Origin: an uncultured Prevotellaceae bacterium
GTDB taxonomy: Bacteria; Bacteroidota; Bacteroidia; Bacteroidales; Muribaculaceae
Assembly (NCBI GenBank): GCA_900320245.1
Contig: ONRP01000021.1
Location: forward strand, 1-41,000
Direction of reading: 5' to 3'
Length of the DNA stretch: 41,000 nt
Shown here: one piece after another, positions 1,415 to 32,306 of the stretch
Layout: every line of letters begins with the position of its first letter
How positions within the stretch are numbered: the stretch's first letter is position 1
The notes under the pieces: model-generated
Seen by the model: only the letters and a program-made list of their open reading frames with translations
The model's database searches: none
Told to the model about the DNA's origin: nothing
Position numbers and translations under genes: made by a program

Positions 1415-3868
1415 ATGATTTATCCCTCATCGTTTGAGACCAAGATAGGCTTTGATGCCGTGAGGCGCGAAGTGGAGCGCCATTGTGTGAGCGCGTTGGG
1501 TGCCGCCAACGTGCCCCGGCTGCGTTTCTCGACACGCCGCGACGAGGTAATCCGTTGGCTCGAAGAGACCAACGAGTTCCTATCGATTCTTGAGACGGGC
1601 AAGGAGTTCCCGCTGAGTTACTACTTCGACCTGCGCGTGGTGCTCAAGGAAGTATCGACACCGGGCACGTTCTTGTCGGCCGAGCGCCTGTTTGACCTGC
1701 AGCGCCTGCTGTCGACGGTGACTCAGGTGGTGCGCTTCTTTGCCGTCGAGGGCGGCGAGAGCACGCCTTATCCTAGCCTGCGCGAACTGACAAGCGGCAT
1801 GCAGTCCTTCCCGGAACTGAGCGCCGCAATCGGCCATGTGCTCGACAAGGCCGGCAACATCAAGGACACGGCATCGCCCCGACTGCAGGAACTGCGCACG
1901 GCCATTGCCCGCGTCACCAGCAGCATCAACGGCACCCTGCGACGCATCATCGCTCAGGGCAAGCAGGACGGCATCCTCGACAACGACGTGCAACCCTCGT
2001 TGCGCGATGGTCGCCTGGTGCTGCCTGTGAGTGCGATGAACAAGCGCAAACTGCATGGCATCGTCCATGACGAGAGCGCCACGGGAAAGACCGTGTTCAT
2101 CGAGCCTGACGCCATCGTCGAGGCCAATAACCGTATCCGCGAGACCGAGGCCGAAATCGCCCGCGAAATCATCCGCATCCTCACCGAGGTGACCGACCTG
2201 ATACGTCCCCATCTCGGGGAACTGGCCGGCGTGCTTGACACTTTGGGCCAACTGGATTTCATCAGGGCTAAGGCCTTGTTTGCCAAGGATGTGGGTGCCC
2301 AGATGTGTCATATCGACCGAAAACCCGTCGTGGAGTGGTACACTGCCATCCACCCGGCGCTGATGCTCTCGCTGCGCAGCCAGGGCAAGGAGGTCGTGCC
2401 GTTGAACATCGCTCTGAACAAGCAGAACCGCATCCTGGTCATCTCCGGCCCTAATGCCGGCGGCAAATCGGTGTGCCTCAAGACCGTGGGCGTGGTGCAA
2501 TACATGATGCAATGTGGCCTGTTGCCCACCTTGCGCGACAATTCCCACATGGGGCTGTTCAATGACATCTTTATCGACATCGGTGACCAGCAGAGCATCG
2601 AGAACGACTTGAGTACCTACAGCAGCCACCTGCAGAACATGAAACTTTTCCTCTCGCGTGGCGGCAAGCAGTCGCTCATCCTCATCGACGAGATGGGCAG
2701 CGGCACCGAACCGCAGATTGGCGGGGCCATCGCCCAATCCATCCTCGAGCAATTGAATGAGCATCAGGTGATGGGCGTGGTGACGACCCACTACCAGAAC
2801 CTGAAACATTTTGCCGACGAGACCGATGGCGTGGTCAACGGAGCGATGCTCTATGACCGCCAGCACATGCAGCCGCTGTTCCAGTTGTCAATGGGCTATC
2901 CCGGCAGTTCGTTCGCCATCGAGATTGCCCGTAAGACGGGCCTGCCGCAGCAGGTCATCGACAAGGCTGCCGAGATCGTGGGCAGCGACTACATCAATAT
3001 GGACAAATACCTGCTCGATATCGTGCGCGACCGCCGCTATTGGGAAAACAAGCGACAGGACGTGCGCGCCAAGGAGAGGCGGCTCGATCAGATGATTGCT
3101 GACTACGACGAACGCCTGGACAATATCCGGGCCGAGCATCGGCAGATCATCCATGAGGCGCGCGCCGAGGCACAGGAGATTCTGCAAGGCAGCAATGCCC
3201 AGATTGAACGTACCATCAAGGCCATTCGAGACGAGCAGGCCGAGAAAGAGCGCACCAAGGAATTGCGCCGCCAACTCGACGAATTCAAGGCGCGCCTCAA
3301 TGCCGAGGAGCCAGAGGCTCCGTCAAGGTTAAAGGAACTGACGCCCAAGACCACACCCCGCCGCAAACAGCCCAAGAAGTCCGCCCCCAAGGCTATGGCC
3401 AAGGACCGCCCCTTGCAGGCCGGCGATAACGTGGTACTCAAGGGAACGACGACAGTGGGAACACTCATCAGCATCGACGAGAAATACGCCCTGGTGGCTT
3501 TCGGTAACATCAAGACGCGCATCGAGGTCGACCAAGTGGAACGCACCATGCGCAAGGAGAAAGCACCCAAGGCCGAATCCCTGGGACGCAGTACTACCGA
3601 CGAAATACGTGCGCGGCAACTGAATTTCAAACCCGACATCGACGTGAGGGGAATGCGGGCCGACGAGGCTTTGCAGGCCATTACCTACTTTATCGACGAT
3701 GCCATCCAGTTCAGTGCACAACGGGTGCGCATCCTGCACGGTACCGGCACTGGAGCGCTCAAGGTGGCTATCCGTGAATACCTGCATACCGTCAGCGGTG
3801 TCAAGTCCTACCGCGACGAGCATGTGCAATTTGGTGGGGCCGGTATCACGGTCGTTGATTTGGAGTAG
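1415..3868 (+). CDS. mutS2: MutS2-family endonuclease / recombination or ribosome-collision factor
   Basis: MutS2 proteins are dimeric ATPases with a C-terminal Smr nuclease domain. In different bacteria they suppress recombination or split collided ribosomes. This 817-residue protein has the full layout: an N-terminal MutS-like core, Walker A GPNAGGKS at residues 345-352, Walker B LILIDEMGSGTE, a long charged coiled coil after the ATPase, a Lys/Pro-rich linker, and a C-terminal Smr domain with DVRGMRADEA and the LHGTGTGAL loop. I chose ATG 1415 because residue 1 then begins the family's usual N-terminus and the promoter lies just upstream. AGATATC/AGATAAG heptamer repeats begin at its stop codon. 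Which role it plays here cannot be read from sequence. Confidence 0.95.
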   Translation: MIYPSSFETKIGFDAVRREVERHCVSALGAANVPRLRFSTRRDEVIRWLEETNEFLSILETGKEFPLSYYFDLRVVLKEVSTPGTFLSAERLFDLQRLLSTVTQVVRFFAVEGGESTPYPSLRELTSGMQSFPELSAAIGHVLDKAGNIKDTASPRLQELRTAIARVTSSINGTLRRIIAQGKQDGILDNDVQPSLRDGRLVLPVSAMNKRKLHGIVHDESATGKTVFIEPDAIVEANNRIRETEAEIAREIIRILTEVTDLIRPHLGELAGVLDTLGQLDFIRAKALFAKDVGAQMCHIDRKPVVEWYTAIHPALMLSLRSQGKEVVPLNIALNKQNRILVISGPNAGGKSVCLKTVGVVQYMMQCGLLPTLRDNSHMGLFNDIFIDIGDQQSIENDLSTYSSHLQNMKLFLSRGGKQSLILIDEMGSGTEPQIGGAIAQSILEQLNEHQVMGVVTTHYQNLKHFADETDGVVNGAMLYDRQHMQPLFQLSMGYPGSSFAIEIARKTGLPQQVIDKAAEIVGSDYINMDKYLLDIVRDRRYWENKRQDVRAKERRLDQMIADYDERLDNIRAEHRQIIHEARAEAQEILQGSNAQIERTIKAIRDEQAEKERTKELRRQLDEFKARLNAEEPEAPSRLKELTPKTTPRRKQPKKSAPKAMAKDRPLQAGDNVVLKGTTTVGTLISIDEKYALVAFGNIKTRIEVDQVERTMRKEKAPKAESLGRSTTDEIRARQLNFKPDIDVRGMRADEALQAITYFIDDAIQFSAQRVRILHGTGTGALKVAIREYLHTVSGVKSYRDEHVQFGGAGITVVDLE

Positions 3869-3914
3869 ATATCAGATAAGAGATAAAAGATATCAGATAA
3901 GAGATAAGAGATAA
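3867..3914 (+). repeat. AGATATC/AGATAAG heptamer array after mutS2
   Basis: Seven consecutive 7-nt units (AGATATC, AGATAAG, AGATAAA, AGATATC, AGATAAG, AGATAAG, AGATAAT). The first begins with the AG of the mutS2 TAG stop codon. It is the smallest example of the heptamer arrays that recur through the window. Confidence 0.85.
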
Positions 3915-3976
3915 TTGGGGACCTATAGTGACTATTTAGGCCATGGTGTCTAATGATTTGATATTTAGAATAAAAG

Positions 3977-6025
3977 ATGATTGAGAATAATGTTTTTCTG
4001 AGTCCGTTCAAGACCTCGGGCGGTGCAATACCATTTGACCGCATCACCAACGCTGACTATGAGCCAGCCATCCGTCAAGGCATCAGTGACCATGAGGCTG
4101 AGATAATGGCGATTGTCGACAATCCTGACGAAGCGACATTCGAGAACACGATTGTCGCCCTCGACCGCTCCGGTGCTACGTTGAACCGTGTGCTCGGTGT
4201 GTTCTATCCCATGCTCTCGTGCAATGCCGATGATGAATTGCTGGACCTGAGCAAGCGCATGGCACCGCTGCTGAGCAACCATTTCAACGGCGTCACTCTC
4301 AACGAGCGTCTGTGGGAGCGTGTAAAGTATGCCCACGACCACTTCGACGAGAGCAGCCATGACGTTGAGGACTGCACGCTCATGCGCGAGACCTACAACG
4401 GGTTTTTGCGCAGTGGCGCCAACCTGCAGGGCGATGACCGCGAACGCTATCGTCAACTCAGCAGGCGCCTGACCGAATTGACGCTAAAGTTTGACCAGAA
4501 TGCCCTCAAAGAGACGCCCCGCTACGAACTGTGGCTCACCGAGGACGACCTCGCCGGCCTGCCTGAAAGCGCGCTCGAGGCAGCCAAAAAGGCAGCCAGT
4601 GACAAGGGCCGCGATGATGCCTGGCTGGTCACCCTCGATGCTCCCAGTTACACTCCGTTCATGAAGTACAGTGAACGTCGCGACTTGCGCGAAAAACTGT
4701 ACAAGATGTATAACCGCCAGTGCACCAGCGGCGAATATTGCAACCTGGAAGTGTTGCGCGACATTGCCAATACGCGTTTGGAATTTGCACGCCTGATGGG
4801 CCGTGAATGTTTTGCCCAGTACAAACTCGAGCACACCATGGCTCAGACCCCGGCCAATGTCTATCAAATGCTCAACCGCTTGAGAGACGCTTATCTGCCG
4901 GTGGAGCGCAGCGAAATGGAACGGCTTGCAAGGTTTGCCAGTGAACTGGAGGGCCATCCCGTGGAAATCATGCCGTGGGACTTCAGTTACTACAGCAACA
5001 AGGAGAAGGACTCGATGTTTGATATCAACGACGAACTGCTGCGACCCTACTTTGAACTGGGACAGGTGACCAAGGGCGTCTTCGGGTTCGCCACGCGGAT
5101 GTACGGCCTGCGTTTCGTGCCCAACCACGATGCCCAGGTTTTCCATCCCGAAGTCCAGGTCTATGATGTCACCGACGAGAACGGTTGTGCCGTGGGCATG
5201 CTCTACCTCGATTTCTTCCCGCGTACCACCAAGCAGAGCGGTGCCTGGATGACAAGTTTCCGCGATCAGTATATCGACGACGATGGCAATGATGTGCGCC
5301 CTCTGGTGACGTTGACGATGAATTTCACCCGTCCCACCGACGACAAGCCGTCGCTGCTCACCGTGCGCGAAGTCGAGACCTTCATGCACGAGTTCGGACA
5401 CGCCCTGCACCAATTGCTGTCGCGCTGCAAGTATCAGTCGCTCTCGGGAACCAGCGTTTATCGCGACTTTGTCGAGGTGCCTTCGCAATTCAACGAGAAC
5501 TACGTCTATGAGCGGGAGTTCCTCGACAGTTTCGCACGGCATTACCAGACGGGTGAGCCGGTTCCCCAGGAACTGGTTGACCGCTTGCTGGCCTCGTCTC
5601 AGTATGGTGCCGCCTATGCCTGTGTTCGTCAGTTGGGCTTCGGGTTTATCGATATGGCATGGCACATGATTACCGAGCCCTATGAGGGCGACGATTTTGA
5701 GTTTGAATACAATGCCGTCAAGGACGTCCAGGCATTCGATCCAGTCGAGGGCTGTATCATGTCATCGCATTTCACCCACATCTTCTCGGGCGGGTATGCA
5801 GCCGGCTACTACGGCTACAAGTGGGCCGAAATGATTGAGTGTGACGCTTTCTCGCGCTTTCAGGAGGAGGGCATCTTCGACCGCGATGCTGCCCGCTCAT
5901 GGGTCGAGAACGTGCTCTCGCGCGGCGGCACTGAGCATCCGATGACGCTCTACAAGCGCTTCAGGGGCCGTGAGCCGCGCATCGAGGCGATGATGCGCCG
6001 CGACGGTATTGCACCCGCCAAATGA
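3977..6025 (+). CDS. M3 family zinc oligopeptidase (oligopeptidase A / peptidyl-dipeptidase Dcp type)
   Basis: Thimet-oligopeptidase-family enzyme that cleaves short peptides, probably in the cytoplasm since no signal peptide is seen. The 682-residue length matches Dcp/PrlC. The zinc site is HEFGH at 471-475 within FMHEFGHALHQLL, with the third ligand expected in the following helix. The C-terminal segment contains FSGGYAAGYYGYKWAEM, the substrate-binding loop typical of the family. The ATG at 3977 follows a 60-bp AT-rich gap after the heptamer array. It is followed after 40 bp by a lipoprotein gene on the same strand. Dcp and OpdA cannot be separated on this evidence, so no symbol is given. 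Confidence 0.92.
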   Translation: MIENNVFLSPFKTSGGAIPFDRITNADYEPAIRQGISDHEAEIMAIVDNPDEATFENTIVALDRSGATLNRVLGVFYPMLSCNADDELLDLSKRMAPLLSNHFNGVTLNERLWERVKYAHDHFDESSHDVEDCTLMRETYNGFLRSGANLQGDDRERYRQLSRRLTELTLKFDQNALKETPRYELWLTEDDLAGLPESALEAAKKAASDKGRDDAWLVTLDAPSYTPFMKYSERRDLREKLYKMYNRQCTSGEYCNLEVLRDIANTRLEFARLMGRECFAQYKLEHTMAQTPANVYQMLNRLRDAYLPVERSEMERLARFASELEGHPVEIMPWDFSYYSNKEKDSMFDINDELLRPYFELGQVTKGVFGFATRMYGLRFVPNHDAQVFHPEVQVYDVTDENGCAVGMLYLDFFPRTTKQSGAWMTSFRDQYIDDDGNDVRPLVTLTMNFTRPTDDKPSLLTVREVETFMHEFGHALHQLLSRCKYQSLSGTSVYRDFVEVPSQFNENYVYEREFLDSFARHYQTGEPVPQELVDRLLASSQYGAAYACVRQLGFGFIDMAWHMITEPYEGDDFEFEYNAVKDVQAFDPVEGCIMSSHFTHIFSGGYAAGYYGYKWAEMIECDAFSRFQEEGIFDRDAARSWVENVLSRGGTEHPMTLYKRFRGREPRIEAMMRRDGIAPAK

Positions 6026-6065
6026 CACGTATCCGACAGTTATTAATCCTAAAGATTTTGGAAAG

Positions 6066-6854
6066 ATGAAAAAGTATATAGTTCTGATTGCCGTGTTGCC
6101 CCTGCTGGCCATCCTGATGTCTTGCAATGAAGGCGGCGCCAAGGCCGACCTGCGCAAGATGGTCGATAACATCAATCGGGAGTGCCCCATCCATTATGAC
6201 TACATCACTTGCCAGGGCGCAGCGATACAAGGAGAAGAAGTGGTGATGAACTACATCGTCGACGAGAGTATGCTGAGCCTGCAACTGATGAAGGAAAAGC
6301 CCGACCAGGCCAAGAAATATGGCGGTTCATCGCTGTTCAACGTGTATGACGAGTTGGGAAGCCTGTTGATGGAGTCAGGTTATGGTTTTACCGCCAACTA
6401 CCAGGGCTCGCTCTCGGGCGATGTTGTGACGTTGAGATTCACCAACGACGAGATCAAGGAAATCAAGGCTCATCCCATTTCAAACGAAGAGTTGCTGGAT
6501 TGGGAGATTCAGGCAAGCAATTCGACACTGCCCAGAAAACTGGATGCCGTGACAACGCTGTTGTCGATGTCCCGTGACGGGAATGTGGTCTCCTATAACT
6601 ATGAGATTGATGAGAGCCAACTTGATATGTCTGTCTTGATTAACGGCCAAGAACAACTCAAGCAGACGCTGGCCGAGCAGGTGGCTACGCTGAACTCCAA
6701 TACGTCGTCGGCCCAGGCCTTTATGAGGCTGTTGCGCCGGGGCAATATGGAGTTGCACTATGTCTACAAGGGTAATTCGTCGGGTAAGACGGCAAGAATT
6801 CAGTTCACCAACGCCGAGTTGCGTGACATGGCCAACGACTATGCCGAGGAATAA
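6066..6854 (+). CDS. Hypothetical lipoprotein with an internal duplication
   Basis: Unrecognised 262-residue protein. The N-terminus MKKYIVLIAVLPLLAILMSC is a lipoprotein signal with the acylated Cys at residue 20, so it should be membrane anchored. The mature part looks like two copies of one domain of roughly 105 residues: VVMNYIVDES...VVTLRFTNDEIKEI (about 28-135) and VVSYNYEIDES...ARIQFTNAELRDM (about 147-256). The ATG at 6066 is preferred because an upstream in-frame start would bury the signal peptide. It lies between the M3 peptidase and a GNAT gene with short spacings, consistent with cotranscription. No function can be assigned. Confidence 0.8.
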   Translation: MKKYIVLIAVLPLLAILMSCNEGGAKADLRKMVDNINRECPIHYDYITCQGAAIQGEEVVMNYIVDESMLSLQLMKEKPDQAKKYGGSSLFNVYDELGSLLMESGYGFTANYQGSLSGDVVTLRFTNDEIKEIKAHPISNEELLDWEIQASNSTLPRKLDAVTTLLSMSRDGNVVSYNYEIDESQLDMSVLINGQEQLKQTLAEQVATLNSNTSSAQAFMRLLRRGNMELHYVYKGNSSGKTARIQFTNAELRDMANDYAEE

Positions 6855-6891
6855 CCCGCTGTTTTTGCCTTGTAATGAAATCTGAGTAAGG

Positions 6892-7383
6892 ATGAGGACA
6901 ATCAGAAAAGCCACAATGCAGGATGTGCCGAGAATCATGGTCTTGATTGAAGAGGCCCGCGGCATCATGCGCTCCTGCGGCAACATGAACCAGTGGATAG
7001 GTGGCTATCCCAGCCAGGAAACCATCGAGAACGACATCAGCAACGGCCATTGCTACGTGTGTGCCGAGCAGGGTGGGGAAGTGATAGCCTCGTTTGCCTT
7101 CATTCCGGGACCGGAACCCACCTATAAGGAAATCTACGAGGGACAATGGCTCGACGACAAGCCCTATTATGTGGTGCATCGCCTGGCCAGCACGGCCTCG
7201 AGCCATGGCGTCTTCAATGACGTGATGGACTACTGCTTGGACGTGGCGGGCACTTTGCGCATCGACACCCATCGCGACAATGTCATTATGCGTCACGTCA
7301 TCGACCGCTACGGCTTCACCTACTGCGGCATCATCTACCTCGCTAATGGCGATGAGCGCCTGGCCTACCAGTTGGGGCGCTAA
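6892..7383 (+). CDS. GNAT family N-acetyltransferase
   Basis: 163-residue acetyl-CoA-dependent acyltransferase of the GNAT fold. It opens with the family's usual IRKATMQDVPRIM strand-helix. The central VVHRLASTASSHGVFNDVMDYC region corresponds to the acetyl-CoA binding strand and helix, followed by LRIDTHRDNVIMRHVIDRYGFTYCGIIY, the typical C-terminal strand pattern. The substrate is unknown. The ATG at 6892 lies 37 bp after the lipoprotein, and a strong hairpin terminator follows its stop. Confidence 0.85.
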   Translation: MRTIRKATMQDVPRIMVLIEEARGIMRSCGNMNQWIGGYPSQETIENDISNGHCYVCAEQGGEVIASFAFIPGPEPTYKEIYEGQWLDDKPYYVVHRLASTASSHGVFNDVMDYCLDVAGTLRIDTHRDNVIMRHVIDRYGFTYCGIIYLANGDERLAYQLGR

Positions 7384-7403
7384 ACCCGTAGGTATGAAAA
7401 AAC

Positions 7404-7441
7404 AATCAGGGCTGGTCCATTGCGGGCCAGCCCTGATTTTA
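7404..7441. terminator. Bidirectional rho-independent terminator
   Basis: An 11-12 bp stem AATCAGGGCTGG / CCAGCCCTGATT encloses an 11-nt loop and is followed by TTTTATT on the plus strand. An A-rich run precedes it, so the minus strand also reads out into Ts. It can serve both the GNAT operon and the convergent lipoprotein gene. Confidence 0.85.
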
Positions 7442-7464
7442 TTAGGATTATTGAATAATCTAGA

Positions 7465-8013: not shown

Positions 8014-8069
8014 AATAAAACAACTTTTAAATTTAAAAAATTAATAATAAAACGATAAATTCAACGCCG

Positions 8070-8100
8070 CAAATGTAGCGGCTATTTTTGAATTAGCAAA
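8070..8100 (-). promoter_or_regulatory. Bacteroidota promoter for the small lipoprotein
   Basis: On the minus strand TTTG (8100-8097), a 19-bp spacer and TACATTTG (8077-8070) match the phylum's -33/-7 consensus closely. The 5' leader to ATG 8013 would be about 50 nt. Confidence 0.75.
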
Positions 8101-18049: not shown

Positions 18050-18245
18050 CCAAGGACTAAGGACTAGAAACTATTTTACTTTCAGTCCCTAGTCCCTAGT
18101 CCACAGTTTCTAGTTGGCATCCGCCAACCAAGGACCAAGGACTAGAAACCAAGGACCAAAAACTAGGGACTAGAGACTAAAAACTAGAAACTAAAACTAG
18201 GGACTAGGGACTAAAAACTAGGGACTAAAAACTAAAAACTAAACA
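18050..18245 (+). repeat. GGACTAG/AAACTAG heptamer array between mlaE and mlaF
   Basis: The gap between two operon genes is almost entirely GGACTAG, GGACTAA, AAACTAG and AAACTAA units. A central block at about 18083-18115 is inverted (AGTCCCTAGTCCCTAG) and can pair with the units on either side. A small GTTGGC-ATCC-GCCAAC hairpin (18113-18128) follows. The array ends 7 bp before the mlaF ATG. Confidence 0.85.
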
Positions 18246-18248
18246 GAA

Positions 18249-19046
18249 ATGATTGAAGTCAAGCACATATCCAAGTCATTTAAGGAAGAGGGCGGCACGC
18301 GCCAGGTGTTGTTCGACGTGAGTTGCAAACTCTATGACGGCAAGACCAACCTGGTCATCGGCCAGTCGGGTTCGGGTAAGACGGTGTTGATCAAGAACAT
18401 CGTAGGTCTGTTTGACCCCGACGAGGGCGAAATCCTGTACGACGGCCGCGACATCACCAAGATGGACCGCAAGCAGCGTAAGGCGTTGCGCAAGGAGATC
18501 GGTATGCTGTTCCAGGGGTCGGCGCTGTTCGACAGCGAGACCGTGATGGGCAACGTCATCTTCCCGCTGGTGATGTTCAGCAGCATGAGTGGTAGCGAGA
18601 TGCGCGACCGTGCCCAGTTCTGCATCGACCGCGTGAACCTTACCGGCAGCGAGAACAAGTATCCCAGTGAACTGTCGGGCGGTATGCAGAAACGCTGCGC
18701 CATCGCCCGCGCCATCGCCCTGAATCCCAAGTACCTGTTCTGTGATGAGCCCAACTCGGGCCTTGACCCCAAGACGTCGATTGTCATCGACGAGTTGCTG
18801 AGCGACATCACCCACGAGTTCGGCATCACCACCATTATCAACACCCACGACATGAACTCGGTGATGGGCATCGGCGAGAACATCGTGTTCATCAACAAGG
18901 GCCATGTGGGGTGGATAGGCACCAAGGACGAGATCTATGATGTGGACAACGAGGACCTGAATAACTTCGTCTATGCCACCGACCTGTTCCGCGACGTGCG
19001 CAAGTACCGCCGCGAACATGGCTACAAACCGACGAAGAGTAGATAA
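18249..19046 (+). CDS. mlaF: MlaF-type ABC transporter ATP-binding protein
   Basis: 265-residue ATPase partner of MlaE. It has Walker A GQSGSGKT (residues 38-45), signature LSGGMQKR, Walker B YLFCDEP with the catalytic Glu, SGLDPKTS and the switch His in IINTHDM. Length and motifs match MlaF/Ttg2A. The gene order E-F is standard for the transporter. Its last codons and stop (AGT AGA TAA) form part of an AGATAAG repeat unit, so the array that follows begins inside the gene's end. Confidence 0.93.
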   Translation: MIEVKHISKSFKEEGGTRQVLFDVSCKLYDGKTNLVIGQSGSGKTVLIKNIVGLFDPDEGEILYDGRDITKMDRKQRKALRKEIGMLFQGSALFDSETVMGNVIFPLVMFSSMSGSEMRDRAQFCIDRVNLTGSENKYPSELSGGMQKRCAIARAIALNPKYLFCDEPNSGLDPKTSIVIDELLSDITHEFGITTIINTHDMNSVMGIGENIVFINKGHVGWIGTKDEIYDVDNEDLNNFVYATDLFRDVRKYRREHGYKPTKSR

Positions 19047-19215
19047 GAGATAACAGTTAATAGTTAAGAGATAACAGTTAATAGTTAAGAGATAAGAGAT
19101 ATTTTTGCTGGTGGTGGCGGCTGGTGGAGCGCGCATGCTTCTTTAACCTCTAACCTCTAACCTTTAACCTCTAACCTGCGAGCATCGCGAGCATTTCGTC
19201 CGCGTGAACACGGCT
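19040..19215 (+). repeat. Heptamer array plus composite GC-rich core after mlaF
   Basis: AGATAAG, AGATAAC, AGTTAAT and AGTTAAG units run from the mlaF stop to about 19100. A GC-rich segment rich in GCTGGTGG follows (19107-19131), then GCATGCTTCT, five TCTAACC/TTTAACC units, and a right module TGCGAGCATCGCGAGCAT, TTCGTCCGCGTG, ending near 19213. The same modules recur at 22640-22790 and, inverted, at 27048-27215. Confidence 0.85.
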
Positions 19216-21912: not shown

Positions 21913-22566
21913 ATGAAAGACGCGGTAATTATCACTTCGGGCGGCATGGACTCGACAACCATGCTCTATGAGTACAAGGACGAGATTGCCATGGCCATCA
22001 CCTTTGACTACGGCAGCACCCAGAACGGCCGTGAGCGCCGCTGTGCCATCATGCACTGCCAGCGCTTGGGCATCAAGCATCTGATCATCCCCTTGGACTT
22101 CATGCACAAGTACTTCAAAAGCGCCCTGCTCGAGAGCGCCGATGCCATCCCCGACGGCAACTACGACGACGAGAACATGAAATCCACGGTGGTGCCTTTC
22201 CGCAACGGCATCATGCTCGCCATCGCCTGCGGCATCGCCGAGAGCAACGGCCTCAAGCGCGTGATGATAGCCAACCATGCCGGCGACCACAGCATCTACC
22301 CCGACTGCCGTTCCCCCTTTATCGAAGCCATGAGCACGGCAATGATGACCGGCACCTACGAGGGTGTCAAGGTCTATGCCCCCTATACCGACTTGAGCAA
22401 GACTGAGATTGCCCGCCATGGAGCAGCGCTGGGCCTCGACTACAGTGAGACCTACTCGTGCTATAAGGGCGGAGAGAAGCACTGCGGCACCTGTGGCACC
22501 TGCACCGAGCGCCGCCAGGCCCTGCGCGATGCAGGCATCGACGACCCCACCGAGTACTTGGTTTAG
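21913..22566 (+). CDS. queC: 7-cyano-7-deazaguanine synthase
   Basis: 217-residue ATP-dependent enzyme turning 7-carboxy-7-deazaguanine into preQ0. The PP-loop SGGMDSTTM is at residues 9-17, and the zinc site Cys-x7-Cys-x2-Cys-x2-Cys is in CYKGGEKHCGTCGTCTERR. ATG 21913 is chosen because the PP-loop then starts at the usual position; a longer frame upstream overlaps queF and is not conserved-looking. The TAG stop shares its AG with the first AGTTAAC unit of the following repeat. Confidence 0.96.
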   Translation: MKDAVIITSGGMDSTTMLYEYKDEIAMAITFDYGSTQNGRERRCAIMHCQRLGIKHLIIPLDFMHKYFKSALLESADAIPDGNYDDENMKSTVVPFRNGIMLAIACGIAESNGLKRVMIANHAGDHSIYPDCRSPFIEAMSTAMMTGTYEGVKVYAPYTDLSKTEIARHGAALGLDYSETYSCYKGGEKHCGTCGTCTERRQALRDAGIDDPTEYLV

Positions 22567-22860
22567 TTAACAGTTAAGAGTTAACAGATAAGAGTTAAGA
22601 GTTAAGAGTTAAGAGATAAGAGATAAGAGATAAGAGTTATAAGGCATCTTTGCTGGCGGTGACGGCTGGCGGAAGGCGGATGCTTCTTTAACCTTTAACC
22701 TTTAACCTCTAACCTTTAACCTTTAACCTTTAACCTGCGAGCATCGCGAGCATTTCGTTCATTTCGTCCGCGTGTGCACGCTCGCCCCATCTCTTTTATC
22801 TCTTATCTCTTATCTTTTATCTTTATCTCTCTTCTCTCTCATCTTTTCTCTTTTGTTTTT
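22565..22860 (+). repeat. Heptamer arms flanking a composite GC-rich core, between queC and fabD
   Basis: The left arm (22565-22636) is AGTTAAC/AGTTAAG/AGATAAG units. The core has GCATCTTTGCTGGCGG, GGATGCTTCT, seven TTTAACC/TCTAACC units, TGCGAGCATCGCGAGCAT, TTCGTTCATTTCGTCCGCG and TGTGCACGC. The right arm (about 22790-22850) is inverted (TCTTATC, TCTTTTA units), so the element has heptamer inverted repeats of roughly 60 bp at both ends. No gene is present. Confidence 0.85.
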
Positions 22861-22883
22861 CTCACTTATCTAAAAAATATTCG

Positions 22884-24607: not shown

Positions 24608-24611
24608 GGTT

Positions 24612-24842
24612 TTGAGTTTCTAGTTTCTAGTCCCTAGTCCCTAGTCCCTAGTCCCTAGTCCCTAGTCCCTAGTCCCTAGTCCCTAGTCCTTAGTCCCTAG
24701 TTTCTAGTCCCTAGTTTCTAGTCCCTAGTTTCTAGTCCCTAGTTTCTAGTCCCTAGTTTCTAGTCCCTAGTTTCTAGTCCCTAGTCCCTAGTTTTTAGTT
24801 TCTATCTCTTATCTCTTATCTGTTAACTGTTAACTGTTAACT
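24612..24842 (-). repeat. Heptamer spacer between queD and queE
   Basis: Read on the minus strand, the sense of both genes, AGTTAAC and AGATAAG units follow the queD stop. About 200 bp of AAACTAG/GGACTAG units then run up to the queE start, partly as a strict 14-nt alternation. It is the longest GGACTAG-class array in the window. Confidence 0.9.
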
Positions 24843-24844
24843 CC

Positions 24845-25186
24845 TCACTCCTCCTCGTCCTTGATGTAGATGGCCAGGTTGTTGGCGCTCTCACGCACGT
24901 CGGCGCGGTAGCAGTTGGGGACGGTCTTGACAATCCAGTGGGCGATGTTCTCGGCGGTGGGGTTGAAGTCCAGCACCTCGTTCAGGTTCTTGTGGTCCAG
25001 TTTGCCGTGCACCATTTCCTTGATGAGGGTGAAGTCGGTGACCATGCCGTTGTCGTCCAGTTCCTTTGCCTTGCAATACACGTTCACGATCCAGTTGTGG
25101 CCGTGCAGGTTCTCGCACTTGCTGTTGTGGTCGAGCATGAGCATGTGGGCCGATGAAATTTCCAGTGTCTTTTGTACGTAATACAT
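24845..25186 (-). CDS. queD: 6-carboxy-5,6,7,8-tetrahydropterin synthase
   Basis: 113-residue PTPS-fold enzyme making 6-carboxytetrahydropterin from dihydroneopterin triphosphate. The zinc ligands are His14 (SSAHML), His28 and His30 (NLHGHNW), and the catalytic Cys24 lies in SKCENLHGH, as expected of QueD rather than eukaryotic PTPS. The acidic C-terminus ends just before AGTTAAC repeats. With queE, queC and queF in the window the route from dihydroneopterin triphosphate to preQ1 is complete; folE is not seen. Confidence 0.94.
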   Translation of the reverse strand: MYYVQKTLEISSAHMLMLDHNSKCENLHGHNWIVNVYCKAKELDDNGMVTDFTLIKEMVHGKLDHKNLNEVLDFNPTAENIAHWIVKTVPNCYRADVRESANNLAIYIKDEEE

Positions 25187-25187
25187 T

Positions 25188-25330
25188 TCTAGTTTTTAGT
25201 TTTTAGTTTCTAGTTTCTAGTCCCTAGTCCCTAGTTTCTAGTCCTTAGTTTTAAGTTTTAAGTTTTTAGTCCCTAGTCCTTATCTCTTAACTCTTAACTA
25301 TTAACTGTTAACTCTTAACTCTCAACTCCT
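25188..25330 (-). repeat. Heptamer spacer between the WG-repeat gene and queD
   Basis: In gene sense, AGTTGAG/AGTTAAG/AGTTAAC/AGTTAAT units overlap the stop of the WG-repeat gene. GGACTAG and AAACTTA/AAACTAA/AAACTAG units then continue to within a few bases of the queD ATG (AAACTAGAAATG). Confidence 0.9.
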
Positions 25331-26839
25331 CTTATTCCTTGGCTGGGGCACCGACTCGTTGAAGTGCATGTAGTAGATCAGGCTCATGATGCCCTGGTCG
25401 TAGCCCATGGTCAGTGCCGAGAGGTAATCGCTGCAGAAGATGCCGTCGCGGGCCAGCACAAATCCCTTGGTGCCCAGGCGGCTCTCAATCTTCTTGGTGA
25501 TGGCCTCCTCGGTAGTGGCGGGGCAGTGGTTCAGGTTCATCGAGATGATGACGCGGTTCACCTTTGCGTCATAGTTGAAACTGGCGGCAGTGCTGTCGGC
25601 GTTGGCGGTAGCCACATCGCGGTCGAACACGTACTGGATGATGTAGGGTCCCTGCGGTATGATGAGCGTGTTGCTGCCAGCGTACATACGGGCATCGGTG
25701 CTGACCATGCTGTTCATGTCCATCAGCGTGGTGTGTGCAGTCGCTCCGCAAGCGCCATCCTCCTCAAACATCATCATCAATGCGGCGGCGGCCAGGTCGG
25801 TGTCGATATATCCGCGGGCGGCGAAGGGGTTGTCCTCGCTCACATGGGCGTTCTCAAACTTGACATTGCCCACGGGTTGTCCCGTGCGGTCTACAATCTG
25901 ATAGGTGTCGCCATCGACGGCAATCAGGCGTTCACCGTTGATGTCAAGCAGGTTGTCGTGCTTGATGGGAATCAGGGTCTTGTTGTCCTTGTCTACCAGG
26001 CCTGTCTTCTTGTCCTTGACGACGATGTAGTCGCCGCTCGGCGTACGTGAGAAGTCGTTATAGCCGCCCTTTTGCACCTTCTCCTGGTCGTCGATGGGAT
26101 TGGCGACCTCCTTGCCCTCCGGGCTCAGGCACACCAGGCTGTCACCCTTGACGGCGGGCAGCACACCGTTGATGTAGTAAGGCTGCAGGGGCTGGTAGGT
26201 GGCCGTGCTGGCGTTGTACATCACCTTGCCGCTCTTGTCGATGACGGTAAAGGTGAGGGCGCTGTCGCTGGGTTGGCTCGTGCTGATGACCACTGCATAG
26301 TCGTTATAGAGGAACAGGTTGGCGCTGCTGTAGGTGGCAGGGACGATGGTGTCACCGCTGGTGTTGATATATCCCCACTCGCCGTGGTCGTTCTGGATGG
26401 CAGCCATGCCACGAGAGAACATCGAGCACTGCGACACCTCCTTGGGCAGTTCCTTCACGACCTGTCCCTTGCGGTCGATGACGCACAACTGTCCGCCCAC
26501 GCGGCTGCACACTGCCACACCGTCGTCGCTGAACGATGTCACGCTGCCGAAATGGCCTGCCACGGGTGTCGTCGGGGCGCTCACGTCATAGTAGTCGTAA
26601 CTGCCGTCGTCGTTCATCACATAGAACATACCGTCCACGATGGGCGACGGGGCGTTGGTGAAGGCGTCCTTGGCAACCACCTCGCCGCTGTTCACGTCGA
26701 GGATGCTCCACTTCTCGCTGCCCACGAGTTGTACGGGCAGATATTGGGTCTTGTACTGGTAGGTTGACTCGTTGCCGCCACAGGCGGTCAGCAGTAGTGC
26801 CGCTATAGCGGCCAGCGCTATTCTGGATAGAATCTTCAT
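25322..26839 (-). CDS. WG-repeat lipoprotein
   Basis: 505-residue predicted lipoprotein (MKILSRIALAAIAALLLTAC, Cys20). The mature part contains beta-propeller-like WG repeats: GEWGYINTSGDTIVP is the clearest, with weaker copies such as EKWSILDVNSGEVV, GQLCVIDRKGQVVKEL and KTGLVDKDNKTLIP. The C-terminal 180 residues have no recognised domain. WG repeats are usually surface ligand-binding or structural modules; the ligand is unknown. ATG 26839 gives the signal peptide; the open frame extends further upstream through AT-rich promoter DNA and is not used. It is cotranscribable with queD and queE, but a link to deazapurines is not apparent. Confidence 0.8.
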   Translation of the reverse strand: MKILSRIALAAIAALLLTACGGNESTYQYKTQYLPVQLVGSEKWSILDVNSGEVVAKDAFTNAPSPIVDGMFYVMNDDGSYDYYDVSAPTTPVAGHFGSVTSFSDDGVAVCSRVGGQLCVIDRKGQVVKELPKEVSQCSMFSRGMAAIQNDHGEWGYINTSGDTIVPATYSSANLFLYNDYAVVISTSQPSDSALTFTVIDKSGKVMYNASTATYQPLQPYYINGVLPAVKGDSLVCLSPEGKEVANPIDDQEKVQKGGYNDFSRTPSGDYIVVKDKKTGLVDKDNKTLIPIKHDNLLDINGERLIAVDGDTYQIVDRTGQPVGNVKFENAHVSEDNPFAARGYIDTDLAAAALMMMFEEDGACGATAHTTLMDMNSMVSTDARMYAGSNTLIIPQGPYIIQYVFDRDVATANADSTAASFNYDAKVNRVIISMNLNHCPATTEEAITKKIESRLGTKGFVLARDGIFCSDYLSALTMGYDQGIMSLIYYMHFNESVPQPRNKRS

Positions 26840-26871
26840 CTGTTTGTTTGTAATAATGTCGTTTGAAGTTG

Positions 26872-26903
26872 CGAAATTACTCAATTTTTCGTGTCTTGAA
26901 CAA
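26872..26903 (-). promoter_or_regulatory. Putative promoter of the WG-queD-queE run
   Basis: On the minus strand TTG (26903-26901), a 21-bp spacer and TAATTTCG (26879-26872), one base off TAnnTTTG. The same TAATTTCGCAA string occurs before the SpoIIE-type gene at 38251, which supports it being a real variant. Confidence 0.5.
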
Positions 26904-26956
26904 TAATATTGGATTGTGTAACATTTTTTGTGCTTTTTTGTCAAACGATGCAAGTT

Positions 26957-27315
26957 TTAAGAGATGAGAGATAAAAGATGAAAGATAATAGATAATAGAT
27001 AATAGATAATAGATAATAGATAATAGAGAAGAGATAAAAGATATAAGATGGGGTTAGCGTGCACACGCGAACGAAACGGACGAAATGCTCGCAGGTTACA
27101 GGTTAGAGGTTACAGGTTAAAGGTTAGAGAAGCATCCGCGCTCCACCAGCCGTCACACCAGCCATCCATCCACCAGTGTTCCGCCAGTCTTCACCACCAC
27201 CAAAAATACCTTATAACTGTTCACTGTTCACTGTTCACTGTTAACTCTTATCTCTTATCTCTTATCTTTTAACTCTTATCTTTTAACTCTTATCTCTTAA
27301 CTCTTAACTTCAACT
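26957..27315 (+). repeat. Inverted composite repeat with heptamer arms between the WG gene and groES
   Basis: The left arm (26957-27047) has AGATAAT repeated in tandem and AGATAAA units. The core is the reverse complement of the 22640-22790 core (GTGCACACG, GACGAAATGCTCGCAGG, AGGTTAC/AGGTTAG units, AGAAGCATCCGCGCTCCACC) with an extended GC-rich segment. The right arm (27216-27315) has CTTATCT, CTTAACT and GTTCACT units. The arms are mutually inverted. No gene is supported here. Confidence 0.85.
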
Positions 27316-27332
27316 CTCTCCTGTCAGTGTGG

Positions 27333-27385
27333 GTGACATTTTGTCGCATCGGTGGCGGTTTTTCGCCCTTGGCACACTCGTTGCA
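27333..27385 (+). promoter_or_regulatory. Sigma-54-type promoter and upstream dyad of groESL
   Basis: TTGGCAC-ACTCG-TTGCA (27369-27385) matches the RpoN consensus TGGCAC-N5-TTGC, with the GG and GC exactly 10 bases apart. Transcription would start near 27396, leaving about 50 nt before ATG 27446. A dyad GTGACA-TTT-TGTCGC (27333-27347) lies upstream and may bind an activator. No good TAnnTTTG element is seen here. Confidence 0.65.
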
Positions 27386-27445
27386 GTCTTGCAGAACGTG
27401 AAATTAATTTTAAAAACATAACAACATTAACAATTTTAAGAAATC

Positions 27446-27718
27446 ATGACTATTAAACCATTGAACGACCGCGTTCTCATCGAACCGGCCAAGGCAGAAG
27501 AAGTCGTCGGCGGTATCATCATCCCCGACAGCGCAAAGGAAAAACCTCTCAAGGGCATCGTGCGTGCAGCAGGTAACGGCACCAAGGACGAGGAAATGAT
27601 CGTCAAGCCCGGTGATACCGTGCTCTATGGCAAATATGCCGGTAACGAAATCGAAATCGACGGTGAGAAGTTGCTCATGATGCGCCAGAACGACATCCTG
27701 GCCATCGTCATGGACTAA
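27446..27718 (+). CDS. groES: Co-chaperonin GroES
   Basis: 90-residue lid of the GroEL chamber. The family start TIKPLNDRVLIEPAKAEE, the mobile loop (VVGGIIIPDSAKEKPLKG) and the closing QNDILAIVMD are all present. It is followed by groEL on the same strand, but with 128 bp of heptamer repeats between them instead of the usual short gap. Confidence 0.97.
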   Translation: MTIKPLNDRVLIEPAKAEEVVGGIIIPDSAKEKPLKGIVRAAGNGTKDEEMIVKPGDTVLYGKYAGNEIEIDGEKLLMMRQNDILAIVMD

Positions 27719-29487
<1,769 letters not shown>

Positions 29488-29518
29488 TCCCATCGGCTTT
29501 TTCATCATCAATAATAAG

Positions 29519-29557
29519 TATTCCCCGAGAGGAGCCTTTCCTCTTGGGGAATTTTTT
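29519..29557 (+). terminator. Rho-independent terminator after groEL
   Basis: Stem ATTCCCCGAGAGG / CCTCTTGGGGAAT with a 7-nt loop, followed by TTTTTTG. Confidence 0.88.
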
Positions 29558-29595
29558 GTTTGGGGCAACTCATCGGCAGATTTACCTTTTGGGCG

Positions 29596-29626
29596 TTGCA
29601 AGACTCGGTGATTATGTGTAATTTAG
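29596..29626 (+). promoter_or_regulatory. Putative promoter of the M1 aminopeptidase
   Basis: TTG (29596-29598), a 20-bp spacer and TAATTTAG (29619-29626), one mismatch to TAnnTTTG. It ends 4 bp before the ATG, as at mutS2, suggesting a near-leaderless mRNA. Confidence 0.45.
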
Positions 29627-29630
29627 CGGC

Positions 29631-32108
29631 ATGAAAAAATGGTTACAAATATCGACAATATTCTTGATGGTCATGTTTGCTCAAGTTGCAGAGGCGGCCC
29701 ATGTCGCTCCCGTCGAGAACGGCGTGTCCAGGGAGTTGGCCCAGTACCGTTCGGCCCACATCAGCGATGTGTGCTATAACCTCTCGTTCAAGGTGCCCTC
29801 CCAAAAGTCGGAGCCCGTCTATTTCGAGGAGACCCTGATGTTTGACTGGACGGGTGGGGAAGACCTGCAGATCGACTTCCAGGGCGATGCCAGCCAGTTG
29901 TCGCCGCAGGTTATTGTCAATGACACGAGGGTGAACACGGTTTTAATCAACGAGCATATCGTGATTCCGGCCCGATATCTTGTGCAGGTCGGCAATTCGG
30001 TCTCAATCAGCGGCTACAGCGGTGACAAGGCGTTGAACCGCAGCGACGACTACCTGTACACCCTGTTTGTGCCCGACCACGCCCGCAGTGTGTTCCCGTG
30101 CTTTGACCAACCCGACCTGAAGGCACGTTTCACACTCGACCTGACAGTCCCTGACGGGTGGGTGAGCATCAACAACGAGACCACAATGTCCATTCCCACC
30201 TACTTGTTCTCGTTCACCGCAGGCCGATTCCAGGTGAAGACGGCAATCCGTGACGGACGCCTGCTGACGGCCTTGTACCGTGAGACCGACCCTGACAAGG
30301 TGGCACAACTGCCCGTCGTGTTTGACCAGGTGGCGCTGTCGTTGCGGTGGATGGAGGAATACACGGGCATTCCGTACCCCTTCGAGCACTATGGCTTTGT
30401 CGTATTGCCGGGCTACCAGTTCGGCGGCATGGAGCATCCGGGCTGCATCCAGTTCAACGACCAGCGCATCTTCCTCGGTCCGGAGCCGACGCCCGACGAG
30501 GAGATGTCGAGGCTCAACCTCATCGCCCACGAGACGGCCCACATGTGGTTTGGCGACCTGGTGACCATGCGGTGGTTCGACGACGTGTGGACCAAGGAGG
30601 TCTATGCCAATTTCATGGCGGACAAAATCGCTAGGGAGAATTTCCCCGAAATCAACCACGACCTGGCCTTCGTCAAGTCCCACTATCCGCTGGCGATGAG
30701 CACCGACCGCACCCAGGGCACGCACCCCATCCAGCAGCCGCTGGACAACATGAACAAGGCGGGTCTGCTCTACGGCAACATCATCTACCACAAGGCCCCC
30801 ATCATGATGAGCAAACTAGAGAAAGAGAAGGGCGCCGACAACCTGCGGGACGGCTTGCGCTCCTACCTCAGCCGATATGCCTATGGTAACGCCAGTTGGG
30901 ATGACCTGATCGTCGAACTCGACCGTTTCAACCCCGAGCACAGCGCGCAATCTTTCAGCGACGTGTGGGTCAAGCAGAAGGGAATGCCGGTCATCTCCTC
31001 GGGCGTCCATATGCTCGACGCTGTCCGTGTGGTACAGTACGACCCCTACGGTCGTCATCTGGTGTGGAAACAGGGCTTTGACATCGGCTATCTTGATGAG
31101 AACGGCAGGTTTTGCCAGCATCCCATCTATATGAACGACTACGACTATTTGCTCGACTTGAGTTATGGCAAGGGCCTGTTTGTCAATAGCAACGCCGAGG
31201 GCTATGGCCAGTTTAAACTTGATCGTGAAGGCATCTCGAGAATGTCCGAAGCCTGGAAGACGATGGCCGATAATGACCTGACCCGCTATGCCGCCGTGCT
31301 CAACCTCTACGAGAACTTCCATCTGGGCAACATCACGGCAAAGGAACTGACAAAGGTCCTCATCGAGTTCCTCACCCATGAGAAAAACGAACTGATAGCC
31401 TCGACCACCTGTAGTTATATCAGCGACTTGTTGCCGAACCTTGATGACAAGGAGCGGGACGAAACGGAGCGCCGCCTGTCGGTTTTGATGGAGAATCACA
31501 GCCTGCAATCGGTGCGCCAGACCTTGCTGCGTCAACTTTCGCTCCATGCCGTGTCGCCCACAGTCGTGGACAAAATGGACGAAATCTGGAAAAAGCAAAG
31601 CGCCACGTTCCTTAATCACCGAGATTACATGCGCATGGCCTATCATCTGGCTATCATGCGCCCGCAGCAGTGGCAACAGATTCTTGACGTGCAACGCGGC
31701 CGCCTCAACAACGAGGATCAGCGGCGGGAGTTCGACTTCATCTCACGGGCCTGCAACCCCGACACACAGGTACAACAGCAACTGTTCAACGAACTGCTGC
31801 AGGCCGAGAACCGCCAGGTTGAGCCCTGGGCACGGGACATGCTGGCCCTGCTCAACGACCCCACACGGGAGCCGTTCAGCAACCGCTATATCACACCAGG
31901 CCTTGACGCCCTGCCCGAAATCCAGCAGACGGGCGATATCTTCTTCCCTGGTTATTGGCTAACGGGGCTGTTGTCAGGACACAAGAGTGATGAAGCGAAA
32001 GCCCTTGTGAGACAATGGATTGACACGCATGCCGACCTTGAGCCGGCACTGATGAATAAACTTAAGGAAAATGCTTACTGGCTGCTCCGTAGTGAGAAGA
32101 TGCCATAG
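29631..32108 (+). CDS. Secreted M1 family zinc aminopeptidase
   Basis: 825-residue exported peptidase with a signal peptide (LQISTIFLMVMFAQVAEA). The N-terminal beta domain shows YTLFVPDHARSVFPCFDQPD. The catalytic domain has the exopeptidase motif as GGMEHPG, where most M1 enzymes have GxMEN. The zinc motif is HETAHMWFGDLVT (His300-His304), and Glu323 falls in WTKEVYANF, giving HEXXH-x18-E. The C-terminal half is a helical domain. It should remove N-terminal residues from peptides in the periplasm. Convergent with nhaC across a repeat region. Confidence 0.92.
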   Translation: MKKWLQISTIFLMVMFAQVAEAAHVAPVENGVSRELAQYRSAHISDVCYNLSFKVPSQKSEPVYFEETLMFDWTGGEDLQIDFQGDASQLSPQVIVNDTRVNTVLINEHIVIPARYLVQVGNSVSISGYSGDKALNRSDDYLYTLFVPDHARSVFPCFDQPDLKARFTLDLTVPDGWVSINNETTMSIPTYLFSFTAGRFQVKTAIRDGRLLTALYRETDPDKVAQLPVVFDQVALSLRWMEEYTGIPYPFEHYGFVVLPGYQFGGMEHPGCIQFNDQRIFLGPEPTPDEEMSRLNLIAHETAHMWFGDLVTMRWFDDVWTKEVYANFMADKIARENFPEINHDLAFVKSHYPLAMSTDRTQGTHPIQQPLDNMNKAGLLYGNIIYHKAPIMMSKLEKEKGADNLRDGLRSYLSRYAYGNASWDDLIVELDRFNPEHSAQSFSDVWVKQKGMPVISSGVHMLDAVRVVQYDPYGRHLVWKQGFDIGYLDENGRFCQHPIYMNDYDYLLDLSYGKGLFVNSNAEGYGQFKLDREGISRMSEAWKTMADNDLTRYAAVLNLYENFHLGNITAKELTKVLIEFLTHEKNELIASTTCSYISDLLPNLDDKERDETERRLSVLMENHSLQSVRQTLLRQLSLHAVSPTVVDKMDEIWKKQSATFLNHRDYMRMAYHLAIMRPQQWQQILDVQRGRLNNEDQRREFDFISRACNPDTQVQQQLFNELLQAENRQVEPWARDMLALLNDPTREPFSNRYITPGLDALPEIQQTGDIFFPGYWLTGLLSGHKSDEAKALVRQWIDTHADLEPALMNKLKENAYWLLRSEKMP

Positions 32109-32111
32109 CAT

Positions 32112-32306
32112 TTGCAGTTTTCTACGTGGAAACGCGCCCACTGTCCTCCACCAACACGAGCAAAGATACCTGATCTGTTAACTGTTAACTCTTAACTCTT
32201 ATCTGTTAACTCTTATCTGTTAACTGTTAACTGTTAACTCTTAACTCTTATCTGTTAACTCTTATCTGTTAACTGTTAACTCTTAACTGTTAACTGTTAA
32301 CTCTTC
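32112..32306 (-). repeat. Composite remnant and heptamer array overlapping the 3' end of nhaC
   Basis: 32112-32172 keeps a degraded left edge of the composite core (minus strand GGTATCTTTGCTCG, then TTGGTGGAGG). From 32174 to 32303 there are only AGTTAAC, AGTTAAG and AGATAAG units in nhaC sense, arranged in a higher-order pattern of six or seven heptamers. The array extends into the nhaC reading frame. Confidence 0.85.

Follow-up and report, generated by a model that had tools for sequence, protein, structure and literature searches.

Tandem repeats with a period of seven nucleotides have been described between the genes of several bacterial lineages. The closest parallel to the elements examined here is the TAACTGA direct repeat reported by MacGregor in 2015 from Beggiatoaceae, cyanobacteria, and five Bacteroidetes (PMC4679880). 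Among the Beggiatoaceae sets of this repeat, 147 of 170 (132 + 15) are directed toward a start codon and 12 of 170 toward a stop codon. A second group, described by Rehm in 2015, consists of the G-rich GGGAATC and GGGGA(C/T)T heptamers of Xanthomonas and Nostoc (PMC4692102). A 2007 survey of heptanucleotide long simple-sequence repeats, as cited in both of these papers, found the same favored period of 7 and proposed slippage as its cause. Repeats of this kind are readily dismissed as slippage noise. The current study concerns arrays of 7-nt units in the intergenic gaps of a 41,000-nt stretch of an uncultured Prevotellaceae bacterium, namely positions 1-41000 of contig ONRP01000021.1 (assembly GCA_900320245.1; 3.02 Mb in 73 contigs), which is hereafter termed the window. 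It also covers further stretches from the same genome, from its congeners, and from unrelated hosts. The orientation of these arrays follows the stop and start codons of the adjacent genes.

Across 45 array-bearing gaps, the units fall into two orientation types, with AGTNNNN units located 3' of stop codons and NNNNACT units located 5' of start codons. AGT-type units include AGTTAAC, AGATAAG, AGTTAGG, AGTTTAG, AGTTTTA, and AGTCCCT, while ACT-type units include AGGGACT, AAAAACT, TAAAACT, CCTAACT, GTTAACT, and CTTATCT; AGATAAG, AGTTAAC, AGTTAAG, AGGGACT, and AAAAACT are among the commonest of all. The rule was first noticed in 41 loci of the window's own genome, which constitute the discovery set, and only the remaining sets are treated as replications. 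Scoring code was fixed after the discovery set, each run being scored by its nearest gene end, and genes were called with our own dicodon or longest-open reading frame scripts. A total of 34 arrays lacking an AGT or ACT anchor were excluded from the counts (6 + 9 + 6 + 10 + 3), three of them in the window. Known matches guided the choice of the window, of loci L009-L011 and L240-L243, of approximately half of the stretches from congeners G032 and G024, and of all stretches from congeners G016, G023, and G020 as well as from the cyanobacterial, Acidobacteriota, and Clostridia genomes discussed below. The nearest-boundary rule is obeyed by 152 of 179 runs, and the Fisher test gives p<0.02 for every one of the five sets: 54/62 runs in the discovery set, 30/33 in other stretches of the same genome (p = 2.8e-5), 29/38 in G032 (p = 0.006), 19/22 in G024 (p = 0.002), and 20/24 in G016, G023, and G020 combined (p = 0.018).

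The order of the two types follows the same pattern. All 26 co-directional gaps carrying both types exhibit the order stop-AGT-ACT-start, including 14 of 14 two-type gaps in the replication sets alone (p = 1.2e-4), and looser detection yields this order in 33 of 33 gaps. An exception, encountered at the loosest detection, is the mlaE-mlaF gap of the window, which reads ACT-AGT-ACT (R-L-R) due to the weaker stretches at 18052-18119. Among gaps with a single type, AGT runs lie closer to the stop in 57 of 60. It is also evident that AGT runs are placed in close proximity to stop codons: in 76 of 86 gaps the run starts no more than 12 nt from the stop, and in 47 it overlaps or abuts it. Furthermore, TAG stops are overrepresented beside AGT runs (27/76, compared with 186/1419 among the called genes of the five sets; p = 1.4e-6). 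The rule holds on both strands, with 73/79 runs obeying it in ++ gaps and 49/63 in -- gaps. A replication-strand cause can be ruled out, because genes on both strands obey the rule, as do both arms of one gap. The initial annotation of the window had described AGTTAAC/AGATAAG-type units after stops and GGACTAG/AAACTAA-type units before starts, with a complete stop-B-A-start order at three gaps. In gene sense, the former are indeed found after the stop in seven gaps and the latter before the start in four, and the complete order is present in groES-groEL (+), WG-queD (-), and queD-queE (-). This order is a special case of the wider stop-AGT-ACT-start rule.

Array detection employed Tandem Repeats Finder together with a lag-7 scan, which identified 16 period-7 arrays totaling 1,240 bp in the window, compared with a mean of 0.015 and a maximum of 1 in 200 Markov-1 resamplings. 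All eight gaps listed by the initial annotation were recovered, and the divergent WG/groES gap (26958-27317) can be added to them. The own-genome scan covered 1,067,254 bp (35% of the genome) in two sets, in which 65 and 42 period-7 arrays were found. Periods 5, 6, 8, 10, 11, and 13 gave only 0-2 arrays each in either set; in the first set, periods 9, 12, and 15 gave 13, 8, and 5 arrays, and period 14, as a multiple of 7, gave 53. An absence of orientation or order bias in a scan of this type had been named at the outset as the outcome that would speak against the pattern; over this portion of the genome and the congeners, the bias is strong. The exact three-unit AGWTAAV pattern occurs at 141 overlapping places in the own genome, versus none for the reversed control, and at one or more places in 15 of 36 other congeners searched, the highest count being 43. 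Of 80 named loci, two from the Bacteroidales metagenome-assembled genomes RUG12225 and RUG12169 share 77-86% nucleotide identity with own stretches, and one more reaches 74%. RUG designations denote rumen genomes, which makes an uncultured Bacteroidales of rumen type the probable source of the window. An assembly artifact can be ruled out, since the arrays recur in many separate assemblies.

When the same heptamer is examined in other hosts, the rule does not always accompany it. Our survey of five-unit AGWTAAV arrays used one genome per species, listed 80 of 115 stretches, excluded 20 arrays lying at the edge of a contig or locus, and took phylum labels from record titles. Among the matches listed, the rule is obeyed by 32 of 35 arrays from members of the Bacteroidota (Chryseobacterium, Prevotella, Muribaculaceae, Cytophagaceae, and others) and by 15 of 29 outside this phylum. 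Two cyanobacteria, Oscillatoriales USR001 and Kamptonema, contain 117 and 248 overlapping four-unit AGWTAAV matches, respectively. Their outcome varies with the counting method: 17 of 41 runs obey the rule when all anchored unit types are included, and 6 of 29 obey it when only AGWTAAN units are counted, a bias significantly in the opposite direction (p = 0.002). For the genus studied here, the identical AGWTAAN script finds the rule obeyed by 64 of 73 runs, compared with the 6 of 29 in the cyanobacteria (p = 1.6e-10). Unanchored arrays left out of the cyanobacterial counts number 25 and 33, and the AGWTAAN count leaves out 2 edge or coding-sequence cases in the own genome, 4 in the Clostridia genome, and 1 in genome G379. 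The rule fails in these two cyanobacteria, which carry the same heptamer, so neither the heptamer nor slippage as such can account for it. As a separate observation, AGWTAAV reaches approximately 100 or more overlapping matches per genome in G379, G383, G392, G395, and G398, whose hosts are two cyanobacteria, an Acidobacteriota, a Clostridia, and an Ignavibacteriae; thus, the unit has expanded in unrelated phyla. Within the class of the own genome, the four-unit pattern was found in only 7 of 295 genomes, the own genome included, and is therefore rare.

The gaps that carry arrays are likewise a restricted group. Because some stretches had been picked around known matches, per-gap rates were taken solely from unbiased stretches of the own genome, which comprise 886,671 bp not picked for arrays. 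Here, the share of gaps with an array is 38 of 489 for co-directional, 8 of 87 for convergent, and 0 of 83 for divergent genes, and none of 63 arrays lies within a called coding sequence. Over all own stretches, a single divergent gap out of 102 carries an array, this being the WG/groES gap of the window, whose two outer arms are both ACT-type when read in the direction of the gene that each precedes. Using TAnnTTTG as a Bacteroidota promoter-like motif, arrays were found in 1 of 90 co-directional gaps of 60-300 nt that contain the motif versus 29 of 129 that do not (p = 1.2e-6).

Comparison of orthologous gaps reveals extensive turnover. Five gaps (groES-groEL, both flanks of queD, and both flanks of mlaF) were compared in 27-29 congeners each, using the loci of the 30 best matches to each protein; matches were present in 52, 56, and 61 of 61 genomes. 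Arrays in this comparison are chains of at least three anchors with no identity filter, a few of which may be due to chance. The own genome was excluded, and G024, G016, and other sampled congeners recur in this set, creating a slight overlap with the orientation counts. Among 143 such gaps, 80 have no array, 37 have ACT-type only, 10 have AGT-type only, and 16 have both, with AGT preceding ACT in all 16. The groES-groEL spacer measures 128 nt in the own genome and 15-150 nt among congeners; its units are AGTTAAC and AGGGACT here, whereas other species have AGTTTAG paired with AAAAACT, or ACTTACA or ACTGACA units, or none. The remaining array-bearing orthologous gaps employ several different unit families, and the same arrangement is thus rebuilt from different heptamers between species. 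The length of the mlaE-mlaF gap varies between 2 and 206 nt, which contradicts an earlier suggestion that the arrays set a tuned distance between genes.

The arrays are also distinctive in their content of translational signals. All three frames are closed by 83 of 87 AGT runs and 39 of 55 ACT runs, and stops exceed the means of base-shuffled copies in both types (579 vs 418 and 280 vs 146, respectively). Every unit had been said to contain TAA or TAG, which is inaccurate, as TGA variants exist and AGATATC lacks a stop; 541 of 579 AGT-type unit copies carry one. Potential starts, counted as ATG, GTG, and TTG, are fewer than in base shuffles (90 vs 272 in AGT runs and 5 vs 43 in ACT runs). Flipping AGT runs in place lowers their stops from 579 to 390, and flipping ACT runs raises their starts from 5 to 67 and their stops from 280 to 340, the antisense strand being the stop-richer one before starts. 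Together, these counts suggest that the orientation suits translation, with stops on the stop side and few false starts on the start side, although one term on each side points the opposite way.

The rule follows the host rather than the unit and is therefore best read as selection on mRNA. We consider it quite possible, and propose tentatively, that slippage supplies the arrays and that selection by the host at the mRNA level orients them. Replication slippage or recombination would make, lengthen, and lose units, such that arrays come and go between species. As the gap counts show, arrays settle almost exclusively in co-directional gaps lacking a promoter-like motif or 3' of the final stop in convergent pairs; most of them start at or next to the stop codon, and many finish close to the following start. 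Their orientation tracks the gene boundary both within the genus and among other Bacteroidota, but fails to do so in the two cyanobacteria with the same heptamer. The AGT strand, which is stop-rich and C-poor, might be favored where ribosomes leave, and the ACT strand, being almost devoid of ATG, GTG, and TTG, might be favored immediately before the start in hosts whose ribosomes initiate without Shine-Dalgarno pairing. The orientation fits hosts of this kind (PMC9976891). The arrays most likely lie in untranslated portions of mRNA, i.e. in the spacers of co-directional genes and at 3' ends, and we infer a function in which they would act like a separator between successive cistrons while remaining dispensable at any single gap. 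Because their orientation tracks gene ends from species to species but departs from this in cyanobacteria with the same unit, these arrays offer a natural experiment on what is required of intercistronic RNA in bacteria lacking Shine-Dalgarno initiation. It is conceivable, if improbable, that Bacteroidota hosts read the arrays as punctuation of polycistronic mRNA, with the 3' side of one cistron flagged by an AGU-period-7 tract and the 5' side of its successor by an ACU-period-7 tract. The tracts would then be recognized by the ribosome or an RNA-binding factor in hosts that make no use of Shine-Dalgarno pairing, and the letters between the marks would drift freely and be exchanged between species.

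Several observations weigh against an orientation imposed by selection on mRNA. On the start side, ACT runs lie closer to the start in just 14 of 27 ACT-only gaps, and the distance from the final ACT-type run to the start is no more than 15 nt in only 33 of 53 gaps. The separator function assumes that array gaps are transcribed through, and the presence of arrays is not conserved, so no array is required at any given gap. The initial annotation had regarded the arrays as possible spacers between coupled genes. This view is supported insofar as they are commoner in promoterless than in promoter-bearing co-directional gaps, but the promoterless co-directional gaps (35/238) do not differ significantly from convergent ones (8/87; p = 0.27). 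A role as a three-frame-stop insulator, suggested in the same annotation, fares similarly. Stops do exceed base shuffles, but there is no excess over anchor-fixed shuffles, whether among AGT unit types with a stop (35/42; shuffled mean 33.6, maximum 39) or ACT unit types (21/37; mean 17.3, maximum 24), and upstream of starts it is the antisense strand that holds more stops. Accordingly, selection for three-frame stops is not established as the cause of the rule. AGT runs hold 90 potential starts versus 1 if flipped, which is the wrong direction for avoiding false starts. Furthermore, runs dominated by AGTTAAN, whose commonest units give equal stops and no starts on either strand, obey the rule in 25 of 26 cases; thus, codon content alone cannot be the cause. 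Lastly, the Acidobacteriota genome (7/10 runs) and the Clostridia genome (10/14 runs), though few in cases, lean the same way, so a restriction to Bacteroidota is not clean.

The principal alternative is that the arrays are neutral slippage repeats whose orientation was inherited from seeding at a stop or start codon, with no function and no selection beyond the sparing of genes and promoters. High turnover at orthologous gaps and the avoidance of coding sequences and promoters are both expected from such repeats, and heptanucleotides are reported to have been the most frequent class in the majority of repeat-rich genomes surveyed earlier (PMC4679880). The enrichment of TAG beside AGT runs appears as though the stop were part of the first unit, and in array-free gaps ACT and ACTA are mildly raised before starts (16.9 and 7.0 per kb vs 12.3 and 2.9 mid-gap). 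On the stop side, array-free gaps offer no such seed, AGT being found after stops at 12.0 per kb compared with 12.6 mid-gap. In addition, the same units obey the rule in each different gap that they have reached, whereas cyanobacteria with the same unit do not, and the reversed (RL) order occurs in none of the 26 two-type gaps. Selfish slippage tolerated between genes, as initially entertained, therefore fits the supply and turnover of the arrays but not their orientation, and we regard a wholly neutral origin as possible but rather unlikely. If C-poor RNA were required after stops due to Rho-dependent polarity, the G-containing, C-poor strand alone would be tolerated in operons, presuming that these hosts use Rho. 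AGT runs are indeed poor in C (5% C, 24% G in sense), and cyanobacteria, which are not known to possess Rho, show an absent or opposite orientation bias. However, such a filter leaves unexplained the ACT runs before starts (22% C, 11% G), and AGT runs are also found in convergent gaps, where termination is wanted and 25 of 29 runs in +- gaps obey the rule, which renders this explanation quite improbable.

On a structural view, the two arms would fold across the gap into a hairpin of RNA (or DNA) that terminates, stabilizes, or processes mRNA, or would represent the ends of palindromes resembling miniature inverted-repeat transposable elements or repetitive extragenic palindromes. The AGT and ACT arms are, by their definition, inverted relative to each other, strong pairing of approximately -22 to -32 kcal/mol is predicted in gaps of L019, L020, L048, L059, L064, and L071 and at window position 22567, and common cores such as GTTGGCATCCGC and AGGCGAT lie between the arms in several species. 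Nevertheless, arms within a gap pair no better than arms swapped within the genome (mean -17.8 vs -16.3 across all cross pairs; p = 0.26 by permutation over 26 gaps), a single arm type is present in 87 of 113 array-bearing co-directional gaps, and no Rfam match reached the gathering score in 141,000 bases from 6 sources. A general hairpin between the arms is therefore unsupported, as is attenuation via hairpins as a general role, and an explanation of this type has little likelihood. Motifs that recur at set distances from gene ends could also be binding sites for an RNA-binding protein of the S1, cold-shock, or Csr type, similar to what has been suggested for the TAACTGA repeats (PMC4679880). 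The units vary between species and gaps, with little in common beyond AGT or ACT, and we consider this the least probable of the explanations discussed here.

The arrays of the window are listed in Table 1. The gene assignments for MutS2, QueC, QueD, FabD, MlaE, GroES (Cpn10), the WG-repeat protein, and the Na+/H+ antiporter are supported by matches above curated cut-offs. MlaF (ABC ATPase) and QueE (radical SAM) gave matches only below NCBIfam cut-offs, and the protein labeled HD had no Pfam match and one below-cut-off MobH match.

Table 1. Period-7 arrays of the window and their placement relative to neighboring genes.
Positions	Strand	Array	Placement
3867..3917	+	AGT-type: AGATAAG/AGATAAA/AGATATC	after mutS2; the gene's TAG stop overlaps the first unit
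18052..18119	+	weaker stretches, ACT-type at 18052-18075 and AGT-type at 18084-18119	after mlaE
18126..18243	+	ACT-type: AGGGACT/AAAAACT/AGAAACT	ends just 5' of the mlaF start
19041..19103	+	AGT-type	mlaF stop inside
19139..19179	+	TTTAACC/TCTAACC, third class lacking an AGT/ACT anchor	followed by GCGAGCATCGCGAGC core
22564..22644	+	AGT-type	begins within the queC TAG stop
22681..22742	+	TTTAACC-class	queC-fabD gap
22788..22871	+	ACT-type (TTATCTC)	5' of the fabD promoter-like region
24609..24804	-	ACT-type: AGGGACT/AGAAACT	precedes the queE start
24801..24854	-	AGT-type	queD TGA stop inside
25184..25281	-	ACT-type	precedes the queD start
25279..25330	-	AGT-type	stop of the WG-repeat gene inside
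26958..27317	.	AGATAAT, GGTTAGA/GGTTACA, and TTAACTC arrays	divergent WG/groES gap
27718..27776	+	AGT-type	immediately 3' of the groES stop
27774..27847	+	ACT-type	ends 5' of the groEL start
32170..32307	-	AGT-type	provides the nhaC stop codon

Some of these arrays belong to larger assemblages. One composite block consists of an AGATAAG/AGTTAAG array, a core, a TTTAACC-class array, a GCGAGCATCGCGAGCATTTCGTCCGCGTG-like core, and a TTATCTC array. It is found at window positions 22565-22871 and 26958-27317 in opposite orientation, with a truncated copy at 19041-19200, and its core has two exact places in the genome. The core GCGAGCATCGCGAGCATTTCGT, considered as a possible mobile element, occurs at two exact and two three-mismatch places in the own genome, with arms varying in unit and length. 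A GTTGGCATCCGCC-like core, possibly itself a hairpin, links an AGT arm to an ACT arm in several species and gaps, including L275, L279, L282, L288, L289, and others (queD and mlaF gaps of congeners) as well as window 18113-18127; AGTTGGC, noted together with this core, is an AGT-type unit. A second common core consists of GGCGAT or GACGAT followed after approximately 7-12 nt by ACTTAAAACT, ACTAAAAACT, or similar, and precedes ACT arms beside several genes in several species (L018:7622, L020:16259, L048:6416, L240:5144, L103, L316, and L317). Arrays of AGTTTAG or GGTTAGA may be flanked on one side by GCTCGC...GCTCGC and often on the other by GCATCCGCG or GCATTCGCC (L019:18886-18988, L021:4843-4892, L042:4277-4373, L087, and L095), and in L042 the whole assemblage is tandemly repeated. 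Two further families lack an AGT or ACT anchor. Short arrays of a TCCGTTTCG/TCCGTTTTG-like unit occur in congener mlaF gaps (L299, L303, and L313), and TTTAGGC/TTTAGGT heptamers, which were excluded from the orientation counts, occur in L066, L068, and L071 of G032 and in the queD gaps L267-L269.

When compared to known systems, the arrays share the principal features of bacterial heptanucleotide long simple-sequence repeats, including head-to-tail 7-nt units far above chance, intergenic placement, and length variation among relatives; the accounts citing the 2007 survey mention no gene-boundary orientation rule (PMC4679880, PMC4692102). The repeats of Xanthomonas and Nostoc are similarly intergenic heptamers that vary between close relatives, but they are G-rich and quadruplex-forming, and the available part of their description reports no AGT/ACT boundary rule (PMC4692102). 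The likeness to the TAACTGA repeats is closer. These are also intergenic heptamers for which three-frame stops were noted, and TAACTGA read in phase is ACTGATA, which is ACT-type before starts, as in the present rule (PMC4679880). Like TAACTGA, the arrays described here include ACT units oriented toward the start and located close upstream. The published Beggiatoaceae set, from a gammaproteobacterium, fits the rule. In Flexibacter litoralis, 12 of the 14 TAACTGA sets run forward ahead of a start, and one set in reverse (AGTTATC) immediately follows a stop, in line with the rule; the mixed orientation in the Microcystis sample fits our cyanobacterial result (PMC4679880). The two systems differ in that TAACTGA is a single unit with 2-6 copies in the Beggiatoa genome, and its account, insofar as available, contains no two-sided stop-AGT-ACT-start order, no replacement of unit families at a single gap, and no test of promoter avoidance (PMC4679880). 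TAACTGA itself is not dominant here, its reverse complement AGTTATC being found approximately once in one count and four times among AGT-type units in another. The initial annotation considered the pattern undescribed, which does not hold for oriented intergenic heptamers as such (PMC4679880). No account of the boundary rule in Bacteroidales was found among the open-access papers searched, which does not prove its absence in print. Thus, oriented intergenic heptamers are known, and what is new is a replicated, host-dependent stop-AGT-ACT-start boundary rule.

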